A stretch of 32,181 nucleotides of DNA, taken from positions 1-32,181 of the forward strand of contig JAGCZA010000016.1 in assembly GCA_017960525.1 (NCBI GenBank), read 5' to 3'. The notes below the pieces were generated by a model, which ran no database searches, was not told where the DNA came from, and saw nothing but the letters and a program-made list of their open reading frames with translations. A program made the translations under genes and the position numbers. This stretch comes from Prevotella sp. Lineage in GTDB: Bacteria > Bacteroidota > Bacteroidia > Bacteroidales > Bacteroidaceae. Every line of letters begins with the position of its first letter. The first letter of the stretch is position 1. Positions 1,383-32,022 of this stretch are shown piece after piece.

Positions 1383-1520
1383 TTAATCCTCGCTCCAGTC
1401 GCTGCGCTCTTGGCGGGATTCGAAAGGGCCATCACCACCACCTGTGGATGCCAAGAGATGTTGGTTTTGCACCTTCACCAATGTGATGGCCGGTTTCTGA
1501 TAATTACTTTTCGTTTTCAT
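1383..1520 (-). CDS. Small peptide, 45 aa, with GG motif (unknown function)
   Basis: Starting at the ATG at 1520 (an alternative ATG is directly upstream at 1523), the peptide is MKTKSNYQKPAITLVKV, then QNQHLLASTGGGDGP and an acidic/arginine tail ending SDWSED. It has no transmembrane segment. The layout, a lysine-rich N-terminus with YxKPxI, a hydrophobic stretch ending in LLAS, a GG and a short polar tail, resembles a large class of small uncharacterised Prevotella/Bacteroides peptides and superficially the double-glycine leader peptides of exported natural products. An AT-rich leader (AAAGCAAAAT) precedes the ATG. A longer reading from 1574 would translate the 22-bp repeats and is unlikely. 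The 22-bp dyad array ends 26 nt upstream. Function unknown. Confidence 0.5.
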   Translation of the reverse strand: MKTKSNYQKPAITLVKVQNQHLLASTGGGDGPFESRQERSDWSED

Positions 1521-1543
1521 CATATTTTGCTTTAAAAATTTAG

Positions 1544-1605
1544 TTCGTCCAAACTCCTGGTTTGGTTCGTCCAAACTGGTAGTTTGGTTCGTCCAAACCG
1601 GGAGT
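1544..1605. repeat. 22-bp dyad repeat array A
   Basis: Three units begin at 1549, 1571 and 1593, an exact 22-bp period. Each unit is CCAAACY, three variable bases (CCT, GGT, GGG), RGTTTGG and the spacer TTCGT; the third unit decays after AGT at 1605. A spacer TTCGT at 1544-1548 precedes the first unit. In RNA each unit could pair as a 7-bp stem with a triloop, or across the spacer with a pentaloop. The array starts 5 nt after the stop codon of the 1929-aa gene and ends 26 nt before the small peptide start at 1520. Read in the direction of that gene the spacer is ACGAA, the same orientation as array C relative to its gene. Confidence 0.9.
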
Positions 1606-1609
1606 ATGA

Positions 1610-4600
1610 TTATTTGACTGTTTTCTTGCCATTCTGGATGTAGACGCCCTTGGCTGGCGGGCCGGGGAGCAGCCGCCCCTGCAGGTCGAAGTAGCGGTGT
1701 GTGCCGTCGCGGTCGATGGTGTGAATGACGGGGTTGATGCCCGTCGTGTCGCCATAGTCGTCGGGCAGGTCGCTGTCAAAGTCTCCTGCGGGGAACTGGG
1801 TCTGGAGGTAGTCGGGTTCATCGCCAGCCTGGGTGTAGATGAACTTGGATTCGTAAACCCAGTTACCCGTGAATTCTAATGGTACATAGTAGGCACGGAA
1901 TGTAGGTATATATCCTTTTCGGTATCTTTCTGTGTCATTTCGCACAATCTTCCATTGTCCATTAGACAGTCCAAATGCATGCATCTGCGACCCTTCTTCA
2001 TTCTCAATGTTCCGGAATGTGCCGCGCCACCATCCCACATGTTTGCCTTCTTCCGAGAGAGCGCCATCGAAGGTATCGTAAACCTTGTTGATGCTGGCGG
2101 TTTCAGAGGGAGTGGCATTGATTTTCACCTTCTCAGCGTCCAGATAGAACGTGCCCTTGTTGATGACGGCGACATAGGGGATACCGGCACTGATGTAGTT
2201 GAAGTCGTTGGTGAAAATGAACTCATAGTCATTGGTGACGCTCATCAGACGATAGAGTTTGGCATCGCCGGCTTGTTCCTCCATTTTGGCGAGATAAATA
2301 TCGTAGGGCAGACAGACGGTGTAAGCCTTCGAGGTCCATGTGCCGTCGCCATTGTTGATAGCACTGAGGGCGCGGTTGTAAGTGACATGGGCCAGGTGGC
2401 CGTCGTACTTGGCGAGGGCTTCGCTGTTGTCGGCCAAGTCAATGAGGCTGATGTGGGGCACGCTCCACAGATAGCCGGGATCCGACTCACCGCAGTCGGG
2501 ATGTGCGTAGGTTTTGTCGGTAACGTTGCTGTCGTAGGTCGTTCCGTTTTCACCCACGAGACTGATGGCGTTCCCGAACATGGAGCCCGATGCGGTCACC
2601 TTGTTCATATTCCAGTCGTCGCCCACGGTGATGGTCTCCAGCGATGTGCACTGATAGAACATCAAGGATGTTGAGGTGACATTGCGGGTGTCGAAGTTGG
2701 TGAGGTCGAGTTCCTTCAGTCTGCCACATTTATAGAAGGTGCTGGTCATATCGGTAACCTTGCTCGTGTTCAAGTAGTCCAGACCATAAATACCATCCAC
2801 CAACACCAGATTGGAGAACCATCCGTGCAGGCTGGTAGGCCTGACATCGGCAAACGACTCGTCTATAACGACTTCGCTAACCTGATTGCTCAATGAAACC
2901 CATCCTGGGTCAGCGCTGCCGCTCTGAGTCACCTGCTTGTCGGACCAGAGGGCGGTAATTTTAAAGCCATTGTACTCGCCGCCAACCTTCAACTCGTCTT
3001 CAGTATTAACGAAATAGAGCCGCTTGATGCTGGGACACCAGAAGGTGTAGGCCATAGGGCCATAGTGGTTGTAGATAATGTCGTAGTGGGAATTGGCAGC
3101 AATGGCGGGGTCAAGGCCTATCGTGTTGTACGTCAGGTAGGCCTTGTAAGGCTCTATCGTCTTGCCCTTCTCTGGATAGAAGCCCACGGTCTGGCCGTCG
3201 GGCGCATAGCCGAGCGTCAAGATGTTGCCCTGTGCCGCATCCCTCTGGTTAATCCAGCGCCCGTTGCGGTCGACAGCCACAAGACGGTTGGCGTAGAGCG
3301 GCCAGGGAGCGAGTTCCTCGCTGTACGGCATCAGGCGGTAGGTGCCTGGTTCGCGGGCGGCCACGATGACTGCCGCTGTTGCCGGTATCTGCTGCTCCGT
3401 GCGCGAGAGGTATGCCTTGTAGGTCATAACCTTCACGGAATCGACGATATACGGCTTCAGCCCTTGTGGCAGTTCGGTGTCGAAGCCTATGCAGAAGGTG
3501 CCGAAGTAGCACGTCTCATCTTCGCCATCGACTCCCTTCACGCTGCCGTCAATCTTCAGCGGATAGTACTGGTGCAACTTGCCAGCCTGGTAGTAATTTG
3601 CCCAGGAAGCGTCGCGCTTGTACTTGGTGAACAGGGCCTGGTCGATGGTGGCATCGCTGACGTAGGCATCTATCATTGAGCCGTTATCGGTTACGATGGA
3701 GTTGGCGACCATACGCGGCACCGTGTTGTAGTCGTTGGTGTCGAAATAGAGGCGGCGCAGATTGGGCACCTTGTAGAAGGCTCCCTCGGAAATGCGCTTG
3801 ACAGTTCCCTCGATGACGGCCTCATCGCTGCGGCGACCGTTGGGCCAGGCCACAAGTTCCTTCTGCGTGGTGAACAGTGCACCGTCGCGGGAAACGAACT
3901 TCGTGTTGAACGGGTCGACGAGGATGGTATCGATCGACGAGCCATAGAAAGCGCCTGGCTGCACTGTCTTCAACTTCGAGGGCATCGTGACCGTCTTCAA
4001 CTTGGAGCAGCCGTTGAACGACTCGGCGCTAAGCGTTTCGAGGGCGTAGGGCAGTTTTATTGTCTCTAAGTTGACGAGGCTGGTAAGTTGCGAGGTGAGC
4101 GTGGTGACGTTCTTGAACAGGCGGAACTCCGGGAACTGGCGAATCTGCTGTGCGCTCCACGTCTTGAAGGCGGTCAGCGTCTGCTCGTTGGTGATGACCT
4201 TCAACTCGGCCAATGAGAGGTAACCGTTATTGTCCTTGTCGAAGGCGTTGAGACAGGTCTGACGGGCATAGTCGTCAACAAAGGTGATGCCTGGTGAGAT
4301 GTTGCTGTCGCTGGAGCGTATAGGGATATAGACAACGGCGTTGCCATATTGGGCCTTCATATAGAAGATTCCAGTGACGAGGCGATTCTTTTGGTTTCCT
4401 GTTTCAGATCCTACGACAAAAGAAGCCATAAGGGGCGAGACGATGCCCATCTCGCTGTCGCTCTCGATATAAGCGCCACCGTCACAAGTCCAGTTGGCAA
4501 GTCCCGGCTCGAAGGTCAACTGATGACTGAAGCCCAGCAGGAAACTGCTCGCGGCATCATAGTCTTCGTCGGTGCGGACGGGAATGGCCAGGAGTTTGCC

Positions 4601-7399
4601 GTAGTCGGTGGTGGCAAACGTCTTGAGCATGGGGAAATAGCCGTCGGTGGTCTGCCAGAAAGTGCGGCGCCCCAGGGCCTGACTGATTTCCTGGAGTGTA
4701 AAACCACTGTTGGCGGCCTCGTAGCCTTTGAGCCAATAGCAGTCGCGGATGAAGTCGTGGCCGGCTGCACTGAAACTTTCGCGGTTCTCGAAGTTGAGGT
4801 CGGCAAAGGCTGTAGGCACCACGGCCAAGCAGTTGCGCACCACACCCTTGCTGGTTTCAGACAGCGAGACGAAGGGCGTGTAGTCGCTGAGGAAAGACGA
4901 ACTGAACACAGCCGCGACACAGTCCTCGATGACAGCATCAGCATTGTTGGGACCTACGGCATAGCAGATGCCGCCTCCACGTCCACATTCATAGCGTCCG
5001 TCATGGGTGGCCACGCCAGGCAATGAGTAGTAGATGCCGTGAACAAGACAGTTGCTGATCTTGCCATCCATATTGTAGGCCAGTCCGGCACAGCCGCCAC
5101 TCAAGTATGCCGATGCCAGTCCCAAATTCTTGACAGACCCCTTTGAGGTGATGCTCCCGAAGAGCGCATAGCGGTCTTGAAGGCAGACAAGTCTCAAACC
5201 ATGAACAAAATGGCCACAGCCGTCGTAAGTGGCGTTCCAATTGCCATTGAATTCCCAAGTCGCTGAACCGCTCAGTGTGGGACGGCCTTCGCTGGGATTG
5301 ACCTTGTTGAGCGTGATGTCGCAGATTTGCTCATAGAACTGTCCCACTTGGTTGTTCCTGACAGCATAGGCCAACTGGGCACCGTTCTTGATGATGAAGG
5401 GGTCTTCTGCCGTTCCTGTACCATCGGCACAGGCTGTGGCGATAGAGCCGTCCCACACCTGGTCGACGGTGACATTGAGCCACATCTGGCGACCGCCCTT
5501 AATGGGCTTCGGGCGCTCGCCCGTGCCGCCGTTACTCTGCACCTCGGCATTGATTGTCAGGAAACAGGTGCCGTTGGCTTTTGCGGTGGCCGTCAACTCA
5601 TCGACATTGATACATTCGGCGTCGGGGAGTTGACTGTCGTTGTAGATGCTGACAGTTCGTCCGTCGGCCTCGGTCCAGGAGTCATCGATGGTGCTCACGG
5701 TGAGGGTCGACACGAAGTCGTCGGCACAGTCGCCATACCTGATGCTAACAGGAACGGAAGCCAGCCAGGCCCCCGTCTTATAGAGGCTGTTGTCGTCACG
5801 CACGGCACTACCCAACAGGCGGTTGGCCGTTTCGGAGCCGATGTTGTTTTTCAGCATCAAGTCATAGCCCTGCGTATGAGTGTTGCAGAACACCGTGGGA
5901 TAGAAGCCATCCCGCAAAGTGAAGCCGTATTCTGCCGAATCGTCAATAGGCAGCATTGACACAGGCCCTATCTCGCCCGACGTCAGTTCGCGGGTGCTCA
6001 AACCCTTGATGGTGAGCACCGTCTGATTGTCTCCCACAGGATTGCCGCTGAACAGTTGGCGGTCGTAATAGCAGCCCACAACCGTATCAATGGGTTTCGG
6101 GTTATAGCCGATGATGGCGCCAGTTCTTGATGCGTCTGTCGTCGGTATCATCGTTCCCAAGAACAGGGAATTAACGATGTGCTGGTCACTGCTCCAATCA
6201 AAATAACCGCAGATGCCACCTGCTTCCGAAACCTTCGACCCGTCGATATGACCAGCAAAAACACAGCCGTCAATAGTGGTCGTGAAATTACCATTGGAAT
6301 GAGACATCAATCCAGAAATACCGCCCACAGTCGTACTGCTGTCAACAGATTTCATAGTGACCGTGCTGATGCTGGCCATAATGTTGGAGTCCTGAATCTG
6401 ATAGCCACAAATGCCACCAAGATGACTGCCTACTTCACCACCAATGGTTCCTGATGAGGCACACCCCTTAACGAAACATTTGGCATTCAGTTCTCCAACG
6501 ATGCCACCCGTATTGTTCGTGCGGTTCTCCTGGCAATTAATGGTGACATCGGCAGCACAGTCCACTAAACAAGTGTTTTCAGGCGTTCCTATTCCCAAAC
6601 GGCCACAGATGCCTCCGACACTCTCGATGTTGCCCGAACAAGTGATATTGACCTTGGCCGTGGAATGGGTGATTTCGCCCTCTTTCATCAGACCGAAGAT
6701 ACCACCTATATAAGAATTCAGTCCCCGATAAATAAGGATTGAACCTTCTACTGACACACCACTGACACCTTTTGGCACATAGATGGTTTTGCCACCTGAC
6801 TTTTCAAGCAGGCTCACATTTCCAATACCTTCACTCGAACCACAGAGCAATCCCGCCTGAATGAAGAAATAGGTGTAATTACCGGTTCTTGTGCTGATTG
6901 AGGCATCGCTCATTTGCAAGTAACCGACAAAACCGTCGCAACGTCCAAACAGACCGTAATAACCGTATTCCGGATTATAGGAATTGCCTGAAGGGGAGTA
7001 ATTGACATCGATATACATACCATTGATGCTGTGACGTTTGGTGTCAGCACCCTGACGAGTATCAATGCCTAAAAACGTTCCTTGAAAACTGCTGTTAAGT
7101 CCGATTGGCATCCACTGCACACGCTTGCCGTCGACCTCTTTCGTCAGGTCGATGTCGGCAGCGAGTACGATGACCTTGTCTTTGAACACGTTGCCGCTTT
7201 CGTTGACAAGCCAAGCCACCTGGGCCAGTTGCTCAGGCGTGCTGACAACGACGGGGTCGAGCAAAGTACCCTTGCCATCGACCACTAACGACTGGTCGCG
7301 GTAGTCGTACCATGTGGGGCCATTGATGGGCACAGCAGCATATCCTTCCAACGACACTACCAGTGCCGCGAGGATGAATATCCATTTGCTGATTCTCAT
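1610..7399 (-). CDS. Giant secreted surface protein with GLUG-like, BspA-type LRR and DUF285-like segments
   Basis: A 1929-aa protein with a Sec signal peptide (MRISKWIFILAALVVSLEGYA). Residues about 70-450 carry at least six GGIxG motifs (GGIFG, GGICG, GGIVG, GGISG) spaced about 27-36 residues, as in GLUG-type beta-helix repeats; a related segment recurs near 640-900. An EF-hand-like loop (DKDNNGYLSLAEL) lies near 1050, BspA-like leucine-rich repeats (FNGCSKLKTVTMPSKLKTV, AFYGSSIDTI) at about 1100-1230, and a DUF285-like stretch (NTSKVTDMTSTFYKC, LTNFDTRNVTS) at about 1500-1610. The C-terminus (YFDLQGRLLPG...GVYIQNGKK) is the short tail common in exported Prevotella proteins. Likely surface adhesin; ligand unknown. 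It follows the 7435-12438 gene by 35 nt, so the two are probably co-transcribed. Confidence 0.85.
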   Translation of the reverse strand: MRISKWIFILAALVVSLEGYAAVPINGPTWYDYRDQSLVVDGKGTLLDPVVVSTPEQLAQVAWLVNESGNVFKDKVIVLAADIDLTKEVDGKRVQWMPIGLNSSFQGTFLGIDTRQGADTKRHSINGMYIDVNYSPSGNSYNPEYGYYGLFGRCDGFVGYLQMSDASISTRTGNYTYFFIQAGLLCGSSEGIGNVSLLEKSGGKTIYVPKGVSGVSVEGSILIYRGLNSYIGGIFGLMKEGEITHSTAKVNITCSGNIESVGGICGRLGIGTPENTCLVDCAADVTINCQENRTNNTGGIVGELNAKCFVKGCASSGTIGGEVGSHLGGICGYQIQDSNIMASISTVTMKSVDSSTTVGGISGLMSHSNGNFTTTIDGCVFAGHIDGSKVSEAGGICGYFDWSSDQHIVNSLFLGTMIPTTDASRTGAIIGYNPKPIDTVVGCYYDRQLFSGNPVGDNQTVLTIKGLSTRELTSGEIGPVSMLPIDDSAEYGFTLRDGFYPTVFCNTHTQGYDLMLKNNIGSETANRLLGSAVRDDNSLYKTGAWLASVPVSIRYGDCADDFVSTLTVSTIDDSWTEADGRTVSIYNDSQLPDAECINVDELTATAKANGTCFLTINAEVQSNGGTGERPKPIKGGRQMWLNVTVDQVWDGSIATACADGTGTAEDPFIIKNGAQLAYAVRNNQVGQFYEQICDITLNKVNPSEGRPTLSGSATWEFNGNWNATYDGCGHFVHGLRLVCLQDRYALFGSITSKGSVKNLGLASAYLSGGCAGLAYNMDGKISNCLVHGIYYSLPGVATHDGRYECGRGGGICYAVGPNNADAVIEDCVAAVFSSSFLSDYTPFVSLSETSKGVVRNCLAVVPTAFADLNFENRESFSAAGHDFIRDCYWLKGYEAANSGFTLQEISQALGRRTFWQTTDGYFPMLKTFATTDYGKLLAIPVRTDEDYDAASSFLLGFSHQLTFEPGLANWTCDGGAYIESDSEMGIVSPLMASFVVGSETGNQKNRLVTGIFYMKAQYGNAVVYIPIRSSDSNISPGITFVDDYARQTCLNAFDKDNNGYLSLAELKVITNEQTLTAFKTWSAQQIRQFPEFRLFKNVTTLTSQLTSLVNLETIKLPYALETLSAESFNGCSKLKTVTMPSKLKTVQPGAFYGSSIDTILVDPFNTKFVSRDGALFTTQKELVAWPNGRRSDEAVIEGTVKRISEGAFYKVPNLRRLYFDTNDYNTVPRMVANSIVTDNGSMIDAYVSDATIDQALFTKYKRDASWANYYQAGKLHQYYPLKIDGSVKGVDGEDETCYFGTFCIGFDTELPQGLKPYIVDSVKVMTYKAYLSRTEQQIPATAAVIVAAREPGTYRLMPYSEELAPWPLYANRLVAVDRNGRWINQRDAAQGNILTLGYAPDGQTVGFYPEKGKTIEPYKAYLTYNTIGLDPAIAANSHYDIIYNHYGPMAYTFWCPSIKRLYFVNTEDELKVGGEYNGFKITALWSDKQVTQSGSADPGWVSLSNQVSEVVIDESFADVRPTSLHGWFSNLVLVDGIYGLDYLNTSKVTDMTSTFYKCGRLKELDLTNFDTRNVTSTSLMFYQCTSLETITVGDDWNMNKVTASGSMFGNAISLVGENGTTYDSNVTDKTYAHPDCGESDPGYLWSVPHISLIDLADNSEALAKYDGHLAHVTYNRALSAINNGDGTWTSKAYTVCLPYDIYLAKMEEQAGDAKLYRLMSVTNDYEFIFTNDFNYISAGIPYVAVINKGTFYLDAEKVKINATPSETASINKVYDTFDGALSEEGKHVGWWRGTFRNIENEEGSQMHAFGLSNGQWKIVRNDTERYRKGYIPTFRAYYVPLEFTGNWVYESKFIYTQAGDEPDYLQTQFPAGDFDSDLPDDYGDTTGINPVIHTIDRDGTHRYFDLQGRLLPGPPAKGVYIQNGKKTVK

Positions 7400-12477: not shown

Positions 12478-12615
12478 GGCTGTGTCAAAATTGCCTTAAT
12501 CCAATCGTGGAAATATCATAACTGGGAGTTATAAGGTATATAACTATGAGTTATAAGGTATATAACTGGGGGTTATAAGGTATATAAGTCCACGTAAAGC
12601 GATTTTGACACAGCC
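12478..12615. mobile_element. MITE-like element with 17-bp terminal inverted repeats
   Basis: The 138-bp element is bounded by GGCTGTGTCAAAATTGC (12478-12494) and its near-perfect reverse complement GCGATTTTGACACAGCC (12599-12615), 16 of 17 matching. There is no ORF inside; the interior is AT-rich and holds the 22-bp dyad array B. I see no clear target-site duplication. Ends of this kind are typical of non-autonomous transposon derivatives. It occupies nearly the whole gap between araD and the 7435-12438 gene, 40 nt from the latter's chosen start. Confidence 0.7.
12517..12589. repeat. 22-bp dyad repeat array B (TATAACT family)
   Basis: Units begin at 12517, 12539, 12561 and a partial one at 12583, an exact 22-bp period. 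The unit is TATAACT, three variable bases (GGG, ATG, GGG), RGTTATA and the spacer AGGTA. The second unit is a perfect 7-bp dyad; the first begins with C instead of T; the fourth stops at TATAAGT. The 7-3-7-5 layout and the AACT-NNN-AGTT core equal those of arrays A, C and D although outer arm bases and spacer differ completely. Confidence 0.9.
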
Positions 12616-18653: not shown

Positions 18654-21002
18654 CTATTCTTCCAAATTGTTACCTGTCAGTTCCTCTTCGACGTAGCCTT
18701 CCTCCTCATCGCTCACGGCCAACATATCGTCGTCATTGTGGCAGGGGTCGAAGCCGGCAGGAACATCGAACTGGTCGTTCTGAGTGATGCCCAAAGAGGG
18801 GTCGGCATAGACGCTGGTCATATATTTGGCAAAGATGGGCAGGGCCATCGACGCTCCCTGTCCGTAGGTCATCGTGTCGAAGTGAATATCGCGGTCGTCG
18901 CCGCCCACCCAGCAGCCCGACACCAACTTGGGAGTGAGGCCCATAAACCAGCCGTCGCTATTCGAGTTGGTGGTGCCCGTCTTACCGCCCAACGGTGCCG
19001 TCAAGTTGTAGCGGTGGCGCAATCGGCCAGCCGTTCCGCCGTCGACCACGGCCCTCAGCATATAGAGCATCTTGTCGGCACTCTCGCCGCTGATGACCTC
19101 GTTCATACGCGGCTTGAACTCGGCCACCTTGTTGCCCTCGTTGTCCACGATGCGCGTCACATACATTGGAGCCGAGCGTATGCCGTGATTCACGAAAGCG
19201 GTATAGGCACTCACCATTTCGCCCACGGTAATCTCACAAGGCCCTAAGCAAAGTGCCGGCGAGGGGTGAATTTCCGGATTGCGAATACCATAACGGCGGA
19301 GCACTTCCACAAAAGCCTTCGGGTTCAGACGGTGCATCATCAGGTAGGCCGAAATCCAGTTGTTCGATTGTTGCAAGCCCCACTTCAGCGTCACCATCTC
19401 GCCATAGCGGGCGCGACTACCGTTGCGTGGTGTCCAGGGTTGTCCGGCCACGATGTAGGTCTCCTGCTGGTTGGGCACCTCGTCGCAAGGAGTCATACCG
19501 TTTTCCATCGCCAGCGAGTAGAGGAAGGGCTTGATAGTAGAGCCGACCTGGCGACGGCCCTCAGTAGCCATATCGTAGGCGAAATGGCGGAAGTCCAGTC
19601 CTCCCACGTATGCTTTCACGCTACCCGTGCGAGGCTCCATACTGACGAATCCTGTGCGCAGGAAACGCTTGTAGTAGCGTATGGAGTCCATAGGCGTCAT
19701 CATCGTGTCTACGTCGCCTCGATAGGTGAAGATGGTCATCTTCGTCTTCGTCTGGAACGACTTGTTTATCTCCTCGTCGCTGGCACCAGCATTCTTCATC
19801 GTCACATAGCGTTCCGACTGGCGCACATTCCTCTTCAAGATGCGCTCCACCTCGTCAGCCGACAGGTTGCGCGAATAGGGGGCGTTGGCCTTGTTGCGGT
19901 TGGCCTTGTCGAACTCAGGCTGGAGGTAGTCCACCACGTGGTCGAAGCAAGCCTGTTCGGCATATTTCTGCATACGCGAGTCGATGGTGGTATAGACTTT
20001 CAGGCCGTCGGTGTAGATGTTATAGGGCGAGCCGTCGCGCTTGGTATTCTTTTGGCACCAGCCGCAAAGCGGGTCCTGCTCCCAGTTGAGCGAGTCGATA
20101 ACGTACTTCACGTAACTCCACTCCGGATAGTCGGCCTTGCGGGGCCGCTTGGCCATCATATAGCGGCGCAGGAAGTCGCGGAAATAGGTGGCCATACCGT
20201 CGTTGTGGTCGGCCACGTGGAACTTCAACCCGATGGGCAACACGGTACAACTATCATACTGCTCCTTGTTGATGTAGCCAGCCTTCAGCATCTGCCCCAA
20301 CACCACATTGCGCCGCTCCAACGAGCGTTGCTCGAAGCGAACAGGGTTGTAGAGCGAGGGATTCTTGCACAATCCCACCAGCGTGGCGCTCTCTGTAATC
20401 GAGAGGTCACGAGGCTCTTTCGAGAAATAGGTGTTCGACGCCGTCTTGATGCCTACGGCATTGTGCAGGAAGTCGAAGTAGTTCAGATACATAGCGATGA
20501 TTTCATCTTTCGTGTAGTTGCGCTCCAACTTCACGGCAATGACCCACTCGATGGGCTTTTGCAACATACGCTCCATCGTGTTGTGTGCCACATCGCTATA
20601 GAGTTGCTTGGCCAATTGCTGGGTGATGGTCGAGCCGCCGCCCGCATTCTTCTGGCCCATAAAACCGCGCTTGATGATGGCACGCGCAAGGGCATAGAAA
20701 TCAATACCCGAATGTTCATAGAAACGAGCGTCCTCGGTGGCCACCAAGGCCTGTACGAGTGTTGGCGACAATTCGCTATAGTCGACCATCACGCGGTTTT
20801 CGCGGTCGCGGTTCCACGTGCCCATCAACTTACCGTCGCTGGAAAACACTTGCGAGGCATATTTATTGATGGGATTCTGAAGGTCGGCAATGGGCGGCAT
20901 ATAGCCGATACGCCCATCAGCAATGGCCCAAAAACAGACCACCGCCGCTATGACAATCACCAGGAGCAGCGTCCACAGGAAACCAAAAAACCATTTTCTC
21001 AT
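18654..21002 (-). CDS. mrcA: Class A penicillin-binding protein (PBP1A-like transglycosylase/transpeptidase)
   Basis: Bifunctional peptidoglycan synthase anchored in the inner membrane. 782 aa; one N-terminal helix (about 4-28: WFFGFLWTLLLVIVIAAVV). GT51 domain: ATEDARFYEHSGIDFYALAR with catalytic E90, GGGSTITQQLAKQLY (121-135) and RMLQKPIEWVIAVKLE. Transpeptidase domain: SxxK at S488-T-I-K491 (nucleophile S488), SNN at 546-548, KTG at 674-676 in GGKTGTTNSNSDGW. All catalytic motifs are present. The C-terminus is acidic (SDEEEGYVEEELTG). It is monocistronic, with a promoter at 21028-21059 and its own terminator at 18578-18609. Confidence 0.96.
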   Translation of the reverse strand: MRKWFFGFLWTLLLVIVIAAVVCFWAIADGRIGYMPPIADLQNPINKYASQVFSSDGKLMGTWNRDRENRVMVDYSELSPTLVQALVATEDARFYEHSGIDFYALARAIIKRGFMGQKNAGGGSTITQQLAKQLYSDVAHNTMERMLQKPIEWVIAVKLERNYTKDEIIAMYLNYFDFLHNAVGIKTASNTYFSKEPRDLSITESATLVGLCKNPSLYNPVRFEQRSLERRNVVLGQMLKAGYINKEQYDSCTVLPIGLKFHVADHNDGMATYFRDFLRRYMMAKRPRKADYPEWSYVKYVIDSLNWEQDPLCGWCQKNTKRDGSPYNIYTDGLKVYTTIDSRMQKYAEQACFDHVVDYLQPEFDKANRNKANAPYSRNLSADEVERILKRNVRQSERYVTMKNAGASDEEINKSFQTKTKMTIFTYRGDVDTMMTPMDSIRYYKRFLRTGFVSMEPRTGSVKAYVGGLDFRHFAYDMATEGRRQVGSTIKPFLYSLAMENGMTPCDEVPNQQETYIVAGQPWTPRNGSRARYGEMVTLKWGLQQSNNWISAYLMMHRLNPKAFVEVLRRYGIRNPEIHPSPALCLGPCEITVGEMVSAYTAFVNHGIRSAPMYVTRIVDNEGNKVAEFKPRMNEVISGESADKMLYMLRAVVDGGTAGRLRHRYNLTAPLGGKTGTTNSNSDGWFMGLTPKLVSGCWVGGDDRDIHFDTMTYGQGASMALPIFAKYMTSVYADPSLGITQNDQFDVPAGFDPCHNDDDMLAVSDEEEGYVEEELTGNNLEE

Positions 21003-21027
21003 TGCTCAATTGTTCTGTTTGACGGTG

Positions 21028-21059
21028 CAAAGATAAGCATTAATGCTGAGATAAAAAAA
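21028..21059 (-). promoter_or_regulatory. Promoter of the PBP gene with embedded 12-bp palindrome
   Basis: On minus, TATCTTTG at 21035-21028 fits the -7 consensus; a T run (21059-21053) lies where the -33 box should be. Between them AGCATTAATGCT (21036-21047) is a perfect 12-bp palindrome abutting the -7 box, a possible operator. The start codon at 21002 is 26 nt downstream of the -7 box. Confidence 0.55.
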
Positions 21060-21106
21060 CGATTTTGGAAGATTAGCAGCCTAAAAGTGTTAATATATCA
21101 TAAGAC

Positions 21107-21140
21107 TTTCTCCCCGTTAGGCAGAAAAGCCCTACCTTTG
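21107..21140 (+). promoter_or_regulatory. Putative promoter of the C10 protease operon
   Basis: TACCTTTG at 21133-21140 matches TAnnTTTG exactly. Upstream TTTC (21107-21110) is a poor -33 box with 22-bp spacing. Initiation near 21147 would put the whole repeat array C (21152-21236) in the 5' leader of the mRNA. Confidence 0.5.
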
Positions 21141-21151
21141 TAGGGGAAAAA

Positions 21152-21236
21152 AGTTTGGACGAACCAAACTCATAGTTAGGACGAACCAAACTGGTAGTTA
21201 GGACGAACCAAACTCCCACTTTGGACGAACCAAACT
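21152..21236. repeat. 22-bp dyad repeat array C
   Basis: CCAAACT occurs at 21164, 21186, 21208 and 21230, an exact 22-bp period, each preceded by the spacer ACGAA. The right arms are AGTTTGG, AGTTAGG, AGTTAGG and ACTTTGG, and the three-base centres are CAT, GGT and CCC. It is the same family as arrays A and D. It ends 39 nt before the ATG of the C10 protease and lies just downstream of its predicted promoter, so it should be transcribed. Confidence 0.92.
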
Positions 21237-21274
21237 CAAACCATACTTTTAGCAACGGAAAAACAAGTACCGCT

Positions 21275-24007
21275 ATGAAGAAATATTTCGTTTTGGCAAC
21301 AGCCCTATTAGCATTTGCGACCAATGTGCTATCGGCTCCTATCGACCGTGAGAAGGCCCTGAAGAGTGCCCAAGAGTTTCTAACCAAGTCGCGCAAAGGC
21401 GGCCCAAGGCTGGCTCCTGCTCAGACCCATTTGCAAGAGGCCACAACAACGCAGGGCGATGCCTACTACGCCTTCAACATCGGGCAGGAGCAGGGCTTCG
21501 TCATCGTGAGCGGCGACGACCGCACTCCCCCCATCCTCGGCTATGTCGAAGAGGGAAGTTTCGACGCCAGCCAAATACCCGACAATATGAAGGTGTGGCT
21601 CCAGGGCTACGAGCGGCAGATTGCCTGGTTGCAAGCCCATCAGGACCATACGCCGGAGACACAAACTGGAGAAGAGCGCGAGGCCGTCTCACCTTTGGTG
21701 AATTGCCATTGGGACCAAGGAGAGCCCTTCAACAATATGTGCCCATTCTACACCTCCACCGACAGGTGCGTCACAGGATGCACGGCAACCGCTATGGCAC
21801 AGGTCATCTACTACCACCGCCGGCCAAAGGCCACAACTGACCCCATACCAGCCTACTACACCACCTCATACAATTTTTATAGGGAGGAGATGCCCGTCAC
21901 GACCATCGACTGGGACAACCTGCTGCCCAGTTACGAAGGCGACGAGCCGGAAGATGCCATTAACGCCGTCTCTACGCTGATGGCACTCTGCGGACAATCC
22001 ATCAAGGTAGACTACGGCCCAAGAAGTAGCGGAGCCGTTTCGTCGTTAATGGCAATTGCCCTGCGCAAGTATTTCAACTTTGCACCGTCGACACACTTCA
22101 TAGAACGCGACAACTACCGCCTCGAAGAGTGGGAAAACATCATCTACCAAGAACTGGCCGAGGGCCGCCCCGTGCTCTACGGCGGAATGTCGTCGGGCGG
22201 TGGCCACGAGTTTGTGGTCGACGGCTACGACCGTGACGGCCTGTTCCACATCAATTGGGGATGGGGCGGAATGAGCGACGGCTACTTCCTGCTCTCCGTG
22301 CTCAACTCGGACAACACCCAAGGTGCAGGCGCCAGTTCCAGCAACGACGGCTATAGTTACGACCAAGATGCCATAGTAGGCATCACCCCCTACGACGAAC
22401 TGCCCGTGCCAAGCAATGTATTGACCATCCAAAAGATAGACCTGAGAACCAGCCAGACGACTTATACCCGCCAGACAGACGGCGGTTTCCATCCAATGGT
22501 AAGAGCCGACTTCTTTAATATGACAGGGGAGACAGGAACGTTCAGCGTGGGTCTGCTCATCCTTGATGCCGAAGGCAACATCTGCGAAAGTTATCCCGTC
22601 AAAGAGGTCACGTTAGGCCCCAACCAAGGCTATAGAAGCAGTAATATGGGCGACCAACGCCTCGCTTTCCAGGGCCTGCCCAACGGCCGCTATAGCATTG
22701 CCTTGGGAAGTTGCCTGAAAGACTCTGAAGAGGGGCTGATGCCTTGTGATGGAAGCCTTACCTTCTCCATACAGGCCGACCTGTCCGGCAATGTGCTCAC
22801 ATTGCAATTGCCACAAGTGAACCTGACTGGCACGCTGGCACCAGAAGGCGACGTGGAGGAAGGTATGCCCTTCAAGTTGAACATCGAAATGACAAACAAC
22901 GGCACCGACTTCAGCCGCGATGTCTACGTGCTGGTTGACGGCGAGGAGAAAGGCGGATTCCGTATGGAGATTGCCGGGGGCACAAGCGCCACCTTCACCT
23001 TCGAGATGGGCGGCCTGACGCAAGGCGACAAAACGGTGGAACTGGCCTACAAGGACGAAAATGGCAACAACATTATCATTGCCAGCGGAAACATCACCGT
23101 CACCGCTACCGAGCAGGGAGAACCGCATCTAGTCTTCAATGTATCCATCGAAGAACTGACCGACAATAACATCCTGCCAAGCGGCAAGGCCACGGTAAAA
23201 ATGGAATTGACCAACGACGGCAACGGGAACTTTAACAACCGTGTAGGGGCTATGCTGCTACTGAGAAACGGCAACAAATACTCGACATACGGCGACACGC
23301 CTACTACAAACCTGTTCTTGCGCAAAGGCGAAAGCACCACGCTCACATTCGTCTTCCGCAATCTTCCCAACAATTCAGACTTTATGGTCTATAGAATCCA
23401 GGGAAACACGGCCCAAAGTGCCAACATAAGATTCAGCACCAACTTCTCCCAGCAGGGAATTGGAAACAACGACTTGGATGTTGACATCAACATAGCCGGA
23501 CTTGACGACCGGCAACGCCTGCAAGGCCAGATGGCCAAGGGAATGGTGGCGCTGACCAACATCAACGCCGAAATCTTTGTAGGCAAAGTCTGGATGAAGT
23601 TGCTGAAGTGGGATTCAGAATCTTCGGAATGGGTATTGCAGGATAGCGACGCGCCCAATATGGAGATTTCCGCTGGCGAAACACAGAAGGTGGCCTTTGC
23701 CTTCAACGGCTTGGAAGACAAGACCAAGTACACCCTCGAAGTGTCTTACCAGAAGAATGCTGAAGAGATTGCACAAACCAGCCAGACTTTCCGCACCAAC
23801 TTTGACGGCACGGAAGACGAACCGGAGGAAAAGACGGCCGACGTGAACGGCGACGGCACCATCGACACGCTGGACATTGCCGCCGTGATGAGCGCCATCT
23901 ATGGCGAATACAACGAAGCCGCCGACTTAAACGACGACGGCCGCATCGACATTGCCGACATCTGGAAGGTCATTGAGGCTATGACCACGCAAACAACAAA
24001 TGAATAA
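21275..24007 (+). CDS. Secreted C10 (streptopain-family) cysteine protease with dockerin-like C-terminus
   Basis: 910 aa from the ATG at 21275; this start gives the signal peptide MKKYFVLATALLAFATNVLSA, whereas the in-frame ATG at 21221 would translate a repeat unit. Residues about 25-130 are the I69-type inhibitory propeptide (REKALKSAQEFL, GFVIVSGDDRTPPILGY). The catalytic domain has Cys169 in GCTATAMAQVIYYH and His311 in GGGHEFVVDGYD, followed by FHINWGWGGMSDGYF (Asn/Trp of the active site). Beta-sandwich-like segments follow (about 400-850), then two dockerin-like Ca2+ loops from about residue 853 (DVNGDGTIDTLD and DLNDDGRIDIAD). Likely exported and self-processed, degrading host or competitor proteins. 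The GH25 gene follows after 9 nt. Confidence 0.93.
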   Translation: MKKYFVLATALLAFATNVLSAPIDREKALKSAQEFLTKSRKGGPRLAPAQTHLQEATTTQGDAYYAFNIGQEQGFVIVSGDDRTPPILGYVEEGSFDASQIPDNMKVWLQGYERQIAWLQAHQDHTPETQTGEEREAVSPLVNCHWDQGEPFNNMCPFYTSTDRCVTGCTATAMAQVIYYHRRPKATTDPIPAYYTTSYNFYREEMPVTTIDWDNLLPSYEGDEPEDAINAVSTLMALCGQSIKVDYGPRSSGAVSSLMAIALRKYFNFAPSTHFIERDNYRLEEWENIIYQELAEGRPVLYGGMSSGGGHEFVVDGYDRDGLFHINWGWGGMSDGYFLLSVLNSDNTQGAGASSSNDGYSYDQDAIVGITPYDELPVPSNVLTIQKIDLRTSQTTYTRQTDGGFHPMVRADFFNMTGETGTFSVGLLILDAEGNICESYPVKEVTLGPNQGYRSSNMGDQRLAFQGLPNGRYSIALGSCLKDSEEGLMPCDGSLTFSIQADLSGNVLTLQLPQVNLTGTLAPEGDVEEGMPFKLNIEMTNNGTDFSRDVYVLVDGEEKGGFRMEIAGGTSATFTFEMGGLTQGDKTVELAYKDENGNNIIIASGNITVTATEQGEPHLVFNVSIEELTDNNILPSGKATVKMELTNDGNGNFNNRVGAMLLLRNGNKYSTYGDTPTTNLFLRKGESTTLTFVFRNLPNNSDFMVYRIQGNTAQSANIRFSTNFSQQGIGNNDLDVDINIAGLDDRQRLQGQMAKGMVALTNINAEIFVGKVWMKLLKWDSESSEWVLQDSDAPNMEISAGETQKVAFAFNGLEDKTKYTLEVSYQKNAEEIAQTSQTFRTNFDGTEDEPEEKTADVNGDGTIDTLDIAAVMSAIYGEYNEAADLNDDGRIDIADIWKVIEAMTTQTTNE

Positions 24008-31959: not shown

Positions 31960-32022
31960 AATTTGGTTCGTCCAAACCAGGAGTTTGGTTCGTCCAAACC
32001 AGGAGTTTGGTTCGTCCAAAGT
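31960..32022. repeat. 22-bp dyad repeat array D
   Basis: CCAAAC arms at 31972, 31994 and 32016 with a 22-bp period, spacer TTCGT before each, centres AGG and AGG, and AGTTTGG right arms. A decayed unit (AATTTGG with centre GAA) begins the array at the left. It is the same family and, on the plus strand, the same orientation as array A. Between it and the efflux promoter there is no well supported gene. Confidence 0.9.

Follow-up and report, generated by a model that had tools for sequence, protein, structure and literature searches.

RAYT transposases act on REPs and Rep proteins act on iterons, such as the 22-bp iterons of R6K among plasmid Rep/iteron systems, and an integron gene cassette consists of a gene with an attC on its 3′ side. 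REP/RAYT systems join repetitive extragenic palindromes with Y1 transposases (PMC3733652). In Porphyromonas gingivalis and P. gulae, BrickBuilt/MITEPgRS are MITE-like elements with 23-nt or 41-nt repeats and IS5-like ends, in which the repeats are predicted to form long stem-loops and dyad symmetry is noted (PMC4596501). The window analysed here, which is the whole stretch of 32,181 nucleotides from a Prevotella sp. contig (JAGCZA010000016.1), contains four arrays of evenly spaced short dyads, and arrays of this kind often lie beside genes of the protein family DUF6078 in other genomes. The best reading by analogy is that DUF6078 and its array could form a module working like REP/RAYT or Rep/iteron while being a member of neither.

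The likeness to REP/RAYT lies in the many short palindromes per genome, their lineage-specific sequence, the cognate gene beside the repeats and the presence of some copies in coding regions, whereas the partner here is DUF6078, with no HUH motif seen in its alignment, and the dyads have a fixed 22-bp tandem geometry. By inspection, no GTAG/CGTC end tag is common to the units, CGTC lying inside the TTCGT loop of one family. A Y1 transposase (RAYT) was rejected as the array partner, since none of the seven Y1_Tnp loci found in five of seven array-rich genomes had an array within ~500 bp of the gene; two of them, L349 and L352, had array matches of 19.5 and 21 at ~600-700 bp, and no Y1_Tnp gene was found in the other two genomes. 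The window shares with BrickBuilt a MITE-like element holding a tandem minisatellite in Bacteroidales in several intergenic copies, but here three elements with MITE ends stand among many arrays and the period is 22. As in Rep/iteron systems, a gene lies beside ~22-bp tandem sites of system-specific sequence, with a helicase gene near about a quarter of the loci; unlike them, the arrays are dispersed without a known replicon and the dyad arms are kept while the loops are free, the likeness being one of gene order. As in integron cassettes, one gene with a palindromic site directly 3′ makes a compact unit, but the block contains promoter-like sequence, a tandem array replaces the one attC, dispersed single sites occur and arrays are also found without genes. 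Finally, linkers of 3 bp and loops of 7 bp do not give the combination of unique ~30-bp spacers and cas genes that marks CRISPR. In the one locus scanned for cas genes among the 80 array loci introduced below (L097, from a Prevotellaceae genome), a Cas9-like gene (RuvC_III, HNH_4) at 1430-5287 lies ~0.9 kb from an array at 6163-6217 and a VapE-like gene.

Dyad arrays in the window and across its genome

The arrays, and the element that carries one of them, lie in the window as follows.

1539..1598, no strand: array A, dyads of AGTTTGG-TTCGT-CCAAACT type, period 22
12478..12615, no strand: MITE-like element carrying array B, 138 bp, 3 copies in the genome
12478..12494, plus strand: left end of the element, GGCTGTGTCAAAATTGC, 17 bp, agreeing with the other end at 16/17 positions
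12518..12589, no strand: array B, three 19-bp dyads AGTTAT-AAGGTAT-ATAACT, TRF score 119
12527-12545, 12549-12567 and 12571-12589: the dyads of array B, the third with two changes
12599..12615, minus strand: right end of the element, inverted, 17 bp
21152..21238, no strand: array C, four dyads, linkers CAT, GGT and CCC, period 22
31962..32020, no strand: array D, three dyads, linkers AGG and AGG, period 22

Array starts and stops, together with the positions where units differ, show that each natural unit combines a 19-bp dyad (two complementary 6-bp arms around a 7-bp loop) with a 3-bp linker, which replaces the 7-3-7-5 layout proposed in the initial annotation. The dyad is AGTTTG-GTTCGTC-CAAACT in arrays A, C and D and AGTTAT-AAGGTAT-ATAACT in array B, and all four arrays have the tandem 6-7-6 dyads, 3-bp linkers and period of 22 that define the proposed DUF6078-associated class. 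TRF delimits array B at 12518-12587 (period 22, 3.2 copies); its linkers are ATG and GGG, and ahead of its first dyad stand a partial unit with AACT as its last bases and then a linker GGG. Array C holds A-type dyads in opposite orientation, two units having one unpaired arm position. The core TATAACT-NNN-AGTTATA annotated for array B recurs at period 22 as described but is exact in two cores only, the third being AACTGGGGGTT; of two sequences said to occur in both families, ACTATGAGT is found in B and C, while ACTGGGAGT is found in B and absent from A, C and D, and both are common across the window's genome. Likewise, the two arms change together across the families, but not always within them: array C has CCAAACT with AGTTAGG, and many genomic units have AGTTTGG with CCTAACT. 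Array C (21003-21270 region) lies between divergent genes at 18654-21002 (minus strand) and 21221-24007 (plus strand, start uncertain), whose products, by reading alone, resemble a penicillin-binding protein and a C10-type peptidase.

Array B is indeed enclosed by 17-bp terminal inverted repeats, and two further copies of the element lie on contigs C112 and C116, all three holding three units with a middle linker that varies among copies. The suggestion that such a mobile element carries or generates the arrays did not hold, because no such end lies within the 1.3-kb stretches of eight fetched arrays that also have the AAGGTAT loop, three elements having been found with this pair of ends, and because the core of arrays A, C and D, TTTGGTTCGTCC, occurs in 440 copies on both strands of the genome (reversed control 0). 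The 138-bp MITE, rejected as array generator, carries one array and does not account for arrays in general; it would be a mere captor. In 3-kb loci around 15 near-matches (at most 2 mismatches) to the GGCTGTGTCAAAA-type ends, no further pairs of ends were found and no parent IS was seen, the ORFs there not having been scanned for transposases; TIRs shared with an IS, as in BrickBuilt-type MITEs, were thus not found around the array. Several of these near-matches (L394, L396, L398, L400) are short hairpins that look terminator-like by inspection, for example GAGGCTGTGTCA..TGACGCAGCCTC, and are perhaps terminators. No consistent target-site duplication was found, one of the three copies having a possible 4-bp ATTT and the others none.

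The window's genome (G000; 3.97 Mb, 146 contigs, 94% complete) contains 69 exact matches to AACT-N3-AGTT-N11-AACT-N3-AGTT against 0 in the reversed control, which places the AACT-NNN-AGTT repeat far beyond chance. The 440 core copies correspond to an estimated ~150 arrays. Among 66 arrays counted in 59 fetched stretches and the window, 31 have three units and 27 have four, and their linkers are 66% G+C, most commonly CCC, ATG, ACC and AGG (strand-folded). Called genes flank 42 of these arrays, with 41 gene 3′ ends and 43 gene 5′ ends; 17 others lie inside crude ORFs, and the remaining 7 are at the edges of their stretches. The inspected stretches have no flanks in common except at the MITE copies. 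In several arrays (L040, L041, L045, L046, L050, L053, L060, L062, L068-L070 and L072), a unit with a deviating loop of CTCCGTC or TACGG type is internal, flanked by units with TTCGT loops; one flank is inverted in L072, and in L042 the deviating unit stands at the array end. Slippage would not predict such inner deviating units. The genome also has TGGGAA/TTCCCA arrays (C83 104236-104316, C94 857-893, C117 537-564 and C112 9606-9633; L412-L414 and L003), one of them 11 bp from a MITE copy.

DUF6078 genes beside arrays in other genomes

The exact two-core pattern matches 12 of 301 genomes of the same family, the window's genome included, and the three-core pattern matches at least 113 stretches in named genomes; the 80 that are listed of these at least 113, on which the array-locus counts are based, come mostly from Prevotella, Bacteroides and close genera. 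AGTT-type arms elsewhere include AGTTTA/TAAACT, AGTTTC/GAAACT, AGTTCC/GGAACT and AGTTTT/AAAACT, with loops that differ too, and a search for period-22 dyad arrays with many other arms, expected from the initial annotation, found them in Bacteroidales with quite different arms and the same geometry. Half-unit caps extend 10-11 bp beyond the last unit in many arrays from named genomes. The arrays apparently form a large and undescribed class of evenly spaced dyad arrays in Bacteroidales. The annotation had also suspected one mechanism behind both families of the window, and with period-22 dyads and arms that change together across families, one system probably underlies both. Three-core arrays also occur in records named Actinomycetes (L114 4519-4573, Bifidobacterium sp.; L078, a Micrococcales MAG), where they may reflect convergence, transfer or misbinning.

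The first lead to a protein partner came from clustering the genes that flank the 80 listed array loci, in which DUF6078 appeared at 7 loci and BT4734/VapE at 5, no other cluster spanning more than 6. A family of binding proteins had been named as one option for the common mechanism, and DUF6078 is a concrete candidate for it. The protein has ~145 residues, with three invariant cysteines and one nearly invariant, and its AF2 model has a mean pLDDT of 93 and a pTM of 0.78. It had no match in a sequence search of the PDB, no convincing match in NCBIfam, PHROGs or PADLOC, with no other family above its curated cut-off, and no mention in the open-access literature searched.

Dyad arrays are associated with DUF6078 genes. 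In an arm-blind scan (threshold 19; 99th percentile of shuffled maxima 18.5), 60 of 90 genes had a dyad array no more than 400 bp away, namely 19 of the 30 best-scoring genes from the family draw and 41 of the 60 taken from array-bearing genomes; 30 genes had no array above threshold. In these 90 loci, 62 of 69 array matches lie within 500 bp of the gene, 51 on its 3′ side and 11 on its 5′ side; 20 further loci comprise 8 with an array and 12 without one above threshold. A scan for periodicity only, after removal of identical genes (110 to 108), found a strong tandem repeat within 420 bp in 65 of 108 distinct loci, against 1 in the same loci at 1.2-1.6 kb from the gene (control segments flanked 93 loci on both sides and 15 on one). 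The controls for the association are shuffles, permutations and the same loci farther from the gene. The period is 22 in 50 of the 65 periodic loci, and the dyad fraction in these 50 segments is 77% versus 55% with permuted columns; a period of 23, which is the BrickBuilt repeat length in P. gingivalis, occurs in 5.

Plain minisatellites, made by a MITE or by slippage, could be thought to leave the link with DUF6078 as a by-product of common intergenic hot spots. P. gingivalis does have MITEs that contain tandem repeats of 23 nt and 41 nt (PMC4596501), and all linkers are equal in 9 of the 63 arrays of the window's genome that have at least two. Nevertheless, this account is hardly credible, given a periodicity confined to the vicinity of the gene, loops that vary among units while arms stay constant, which slippage alone does not explain, and the agreement of adjacent and dispersed arms within a genome described below.

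At the genome level, DUF6078 is encoded by 39 of 42 other array-bearing genomes and absent from 3, versus 127 of 301 family genomes; these 42, with one locus each, are drawn from 45 array-bearing assemblies, leaving out L078 (Micrococcales), L079 (a Christensenella-like MAG) and L114 (Bifidobacterium). Of the 247 genomes in a phylum-wide draw, 2 had the gene, and both belong to the family of the window; it was also found in Parabacteroides and Treponema records. No DUF6078 gene, and hence none accompanied by the same arms, was found in the 94%-complete assembly of the window's genome, so that its arrays would be either relics or served by a gene that the assembly lacks, and the class membership of the window arrays rests on geometry and relatives.

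Among 64 loci whose adjacent array scores at least 20, the array lies 3′ of the gene in 49 (median distance 99 bp) and 5′ in 15. The arms of these 64 arrays vary widely, with 37 distinct hexamers (TGGGAA, CTGGTC, GTATTC, ACTGCG, CGGACC, ATAACC, TTCACA and others). In independent named records, nine of which matched, a repeat lies directly 3′ of all six DUF6078 genes read, two of the six being weak; they come from two Parabacteroides distasonis, one Bacteroides finegoldii, one Treponema saccharophilum plasmid and two unannotated faecal phage-labelled contigs. Five have dyad scores of 23.5 (Treponema), 19 (weak), 22, 21 and 27.5, and the sixth is recognised by period 22 alone (44/66); the Treponema record is weak by periodicity and has two noise-level matches upstream. 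In this record (L415 1892-2440, plasmid pTS1), a TGTTTC-type array begins 9 bp downstream of the gene, and the presence of gene and array in a spirochaete is an apparent transfer between phyla.

Conservation of arms and their match with the protein

In arrays next to DUF6078, 86% of arm bases are identical from one unit to the next, compared with 50% of bases in loops and 47% in linkers, so that the earlier suggestion of selection on pairing rather than on sequence could not be upheld, pairing alone not being what is kept. The loop centre GCC/GGC is enriched (25 observed versus 5.1 expected among 192). The arrays could conceivably act as RNA, as tandem 3′ UTR hairpins (a terminator, an RNA antitoxin or a guide-like array) partnering the DUF6078 protein, and it suits this view that arrays often begin shortly past the stop codon and that 1195 of 1470 arm pairs are Watson-Crick, in arrays chosen partly for pairing. 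Wobble-type mismatches, however, are balanced between the sense and antisense strands (72 each) and so give no hint that the DUF6078 transcript folds into a hairpin. Seven sources including the window yielded no Rfam match, arm sequence is kept within an array beyond pairing, and 15 of the 64 adjacent arrays lie 5′ of the gene. An RNA role is therefore most unlikely, and an RNA hairpin or terminator was set aside on the absent Rfam matches and the wobble balance. Kept arms and balanced wobble would suit the sequence-specific binding of double-stranded dyads.

Arm sequence correlates with protein sequence among DUF6078 genes and their adjacent arrays (Mantel r 0.24, p 0.0005; best of 2000 permutations 0.10). 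Pairs of proteins more than 50% identical have 74-82% of arm bases in common, and pairs below 35% have 38-39%. Dispersed arrays also match the adjacent array of their own genome: 26 of 47 free arrays in 28 genomes have the hexamer of a DUF6078-adjacent array in the same genome (permutation mean 5.8, maximum 20, p 0.0002), the free arrays being of AGTT type only because the three-core search pattern selects them, and some adjacent loci having been fetched twice (L307/L139, L266/L121 and L305/L089). At least one match occurs in 14 of the 28 testable genomes, where a cognate gene adjoins repeats of the dispersed type as in REP/RAYT, with DUF6078 replacing the RAYT; in the other 14, the listed free arrays all differed from the fetched adjacent arrays, some paralogues being unfetched. 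In G317, the loops agree as well as the arms (TCGGTAG/CTACCGA).

The TGGGAA arms, read beside DUF6078 in G305, G308 and G309, gave 21, 31 and 6 matches in those genomes when 1 mismatch was allowed, a count in which one array may give several matches and the adjacent array is included. There were no matches in the reversed control or in 14 of 27 genomes, but 1-22 matches in 10 of the 24 genomes where they were unpredicted, and G304 has 19 matches, yet the array beside its only DUF6078 gene has other arms. This distribution is support with leakage and no one-to-one specificity. Both the association of gene and array and the co-variation of arms with protein point to binding of the array by DUF6078.

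Gene-and-array blocks and their possible mobility

The DUF6078 gene and its array occur as bounded blocks at different sites. L245 is 93% identical to L249 and L246 over ~680 bp, a stretch that begins shortly before the start codon and runs to the end of the array, with no other common stretch of at least 350 bp in the 6.4-kb loci. A second group (L224, L226, L228 and L236) has ~650-790 bp in common, 1021 bp in one pair, and some of its loci have other flanks in common as well, for example L226 with L234 and L237. In addition, L286 and L289 are 96% identical over 501 bp around the DUF6078 gene, where an array was undetected.

Arrays also lie inside a coding sequence. In a CobB/CobQ-like protein, the poorly conserved linker between the CbiA and GATase_3 domains is encoded with period-22 arrays of several different arms in 8 of 23 orthologue sequences (which include L335 and L343, the same gene), and the other 15 score at most 17 of 30. 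Repeated insertion fits these arrays best, and they may also reflect vertical descent with turnover of arms. In L335, one of these 15, a Y1-transposase-like ORF, with a HUH-type motif by reading, is inserted in the linker that bears arrays in other species, so that the linker looks like an insertion hot spot.

VapE-like genes of family PF05272, some with PF08800 (8 of 29 clustered proteins scanned), lie in 30 of 110 DUF6078 loci versus 1 of 72 array loci without DUF6078. Among 29 clustered cases, the array is between the two genes in 15, elsewhere in 2 and not found in 12; nine of the neighbours lie 5′ of DUF6078 in divergent orientation, seven of them separated from it by the array. By analogy, a VapE-like neighbour recalls replication modules. 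These divergent pairs would also suit DUF6078 as a transcription regulator, with the adjacent array as autoregulatory operator and the dispersed arrays as regulon operators spread by ordinary duplication and recombination, as would the symmetric dyads, two-helical-turn spacing and kept arms, which are apt for cooperative operator binding. Furthermore, the blocks contain TAnnTTTG, the Bacteroidales-type promoter motif, the second group having promoter-like TATATTTG (TACATTTG in L224). Such a regulator is nonetheless rather unlikely, since 49 of 64 adjacent arrays are 3′ of the gene, the 42 gene-flanked arrays of the window's genome have no bias to gene starts, and arrays lie within coding sequence in the 8 orthologue sequences above.

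Since arrays often lie beside DUF6078 and the same types often occur elsewhere in the genome, they look like one spreading gene-and-site system. We favour, at a probability of roughly 0.6, the reading that DUF6078 binds its own array type, that gene and array form a mobile module and that the window arrays are dispersed copies. The module would consist of the ~145-residue protein and its own tandem dyad array, of period 22 bp (about two helical turns) and mostly within ~150 bp downstream of the gene. As a symmetric dimer, DUF6078 would bind the arms in double-stranded DNA, with cooperativity along the array, and the distribution of copies suggests mobilisation, in which arrays could spread through the action of DUF6078, perhaps with the adjoining VapE-type helicase, on the model of RAYT transposases acting on REPs or Rep proteins on iterons. 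Only tentatively might one go further and regard DUF6078, a very small protein rich in cysteine, as the core of a novel kind of minimal selfish element, in which it recognises its own iteron-like dyad array and copies or moves gene and arrays, partly with a VapE-type helicase. If that were true, dozens of arm specificities would coexist in Bacteroidales, and large expansions, such as that in the window's genome, would be orphan arrays outliving or outnumbering their gene.

An unstudied protein family and a set of regular DNA arrays seem to account for one another. The module, if confirmed, would represent a new system of gene and site that spreads itself in common bacteria of the gut, rumen and mouth, and would explain repeat arrays that now look like unrelated minisatellites. 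The 37 hexamers in 64 arrays, together with proteins of ~145 residues, would then provide material for a recognition code and possible tools for site-specific DNA binding.
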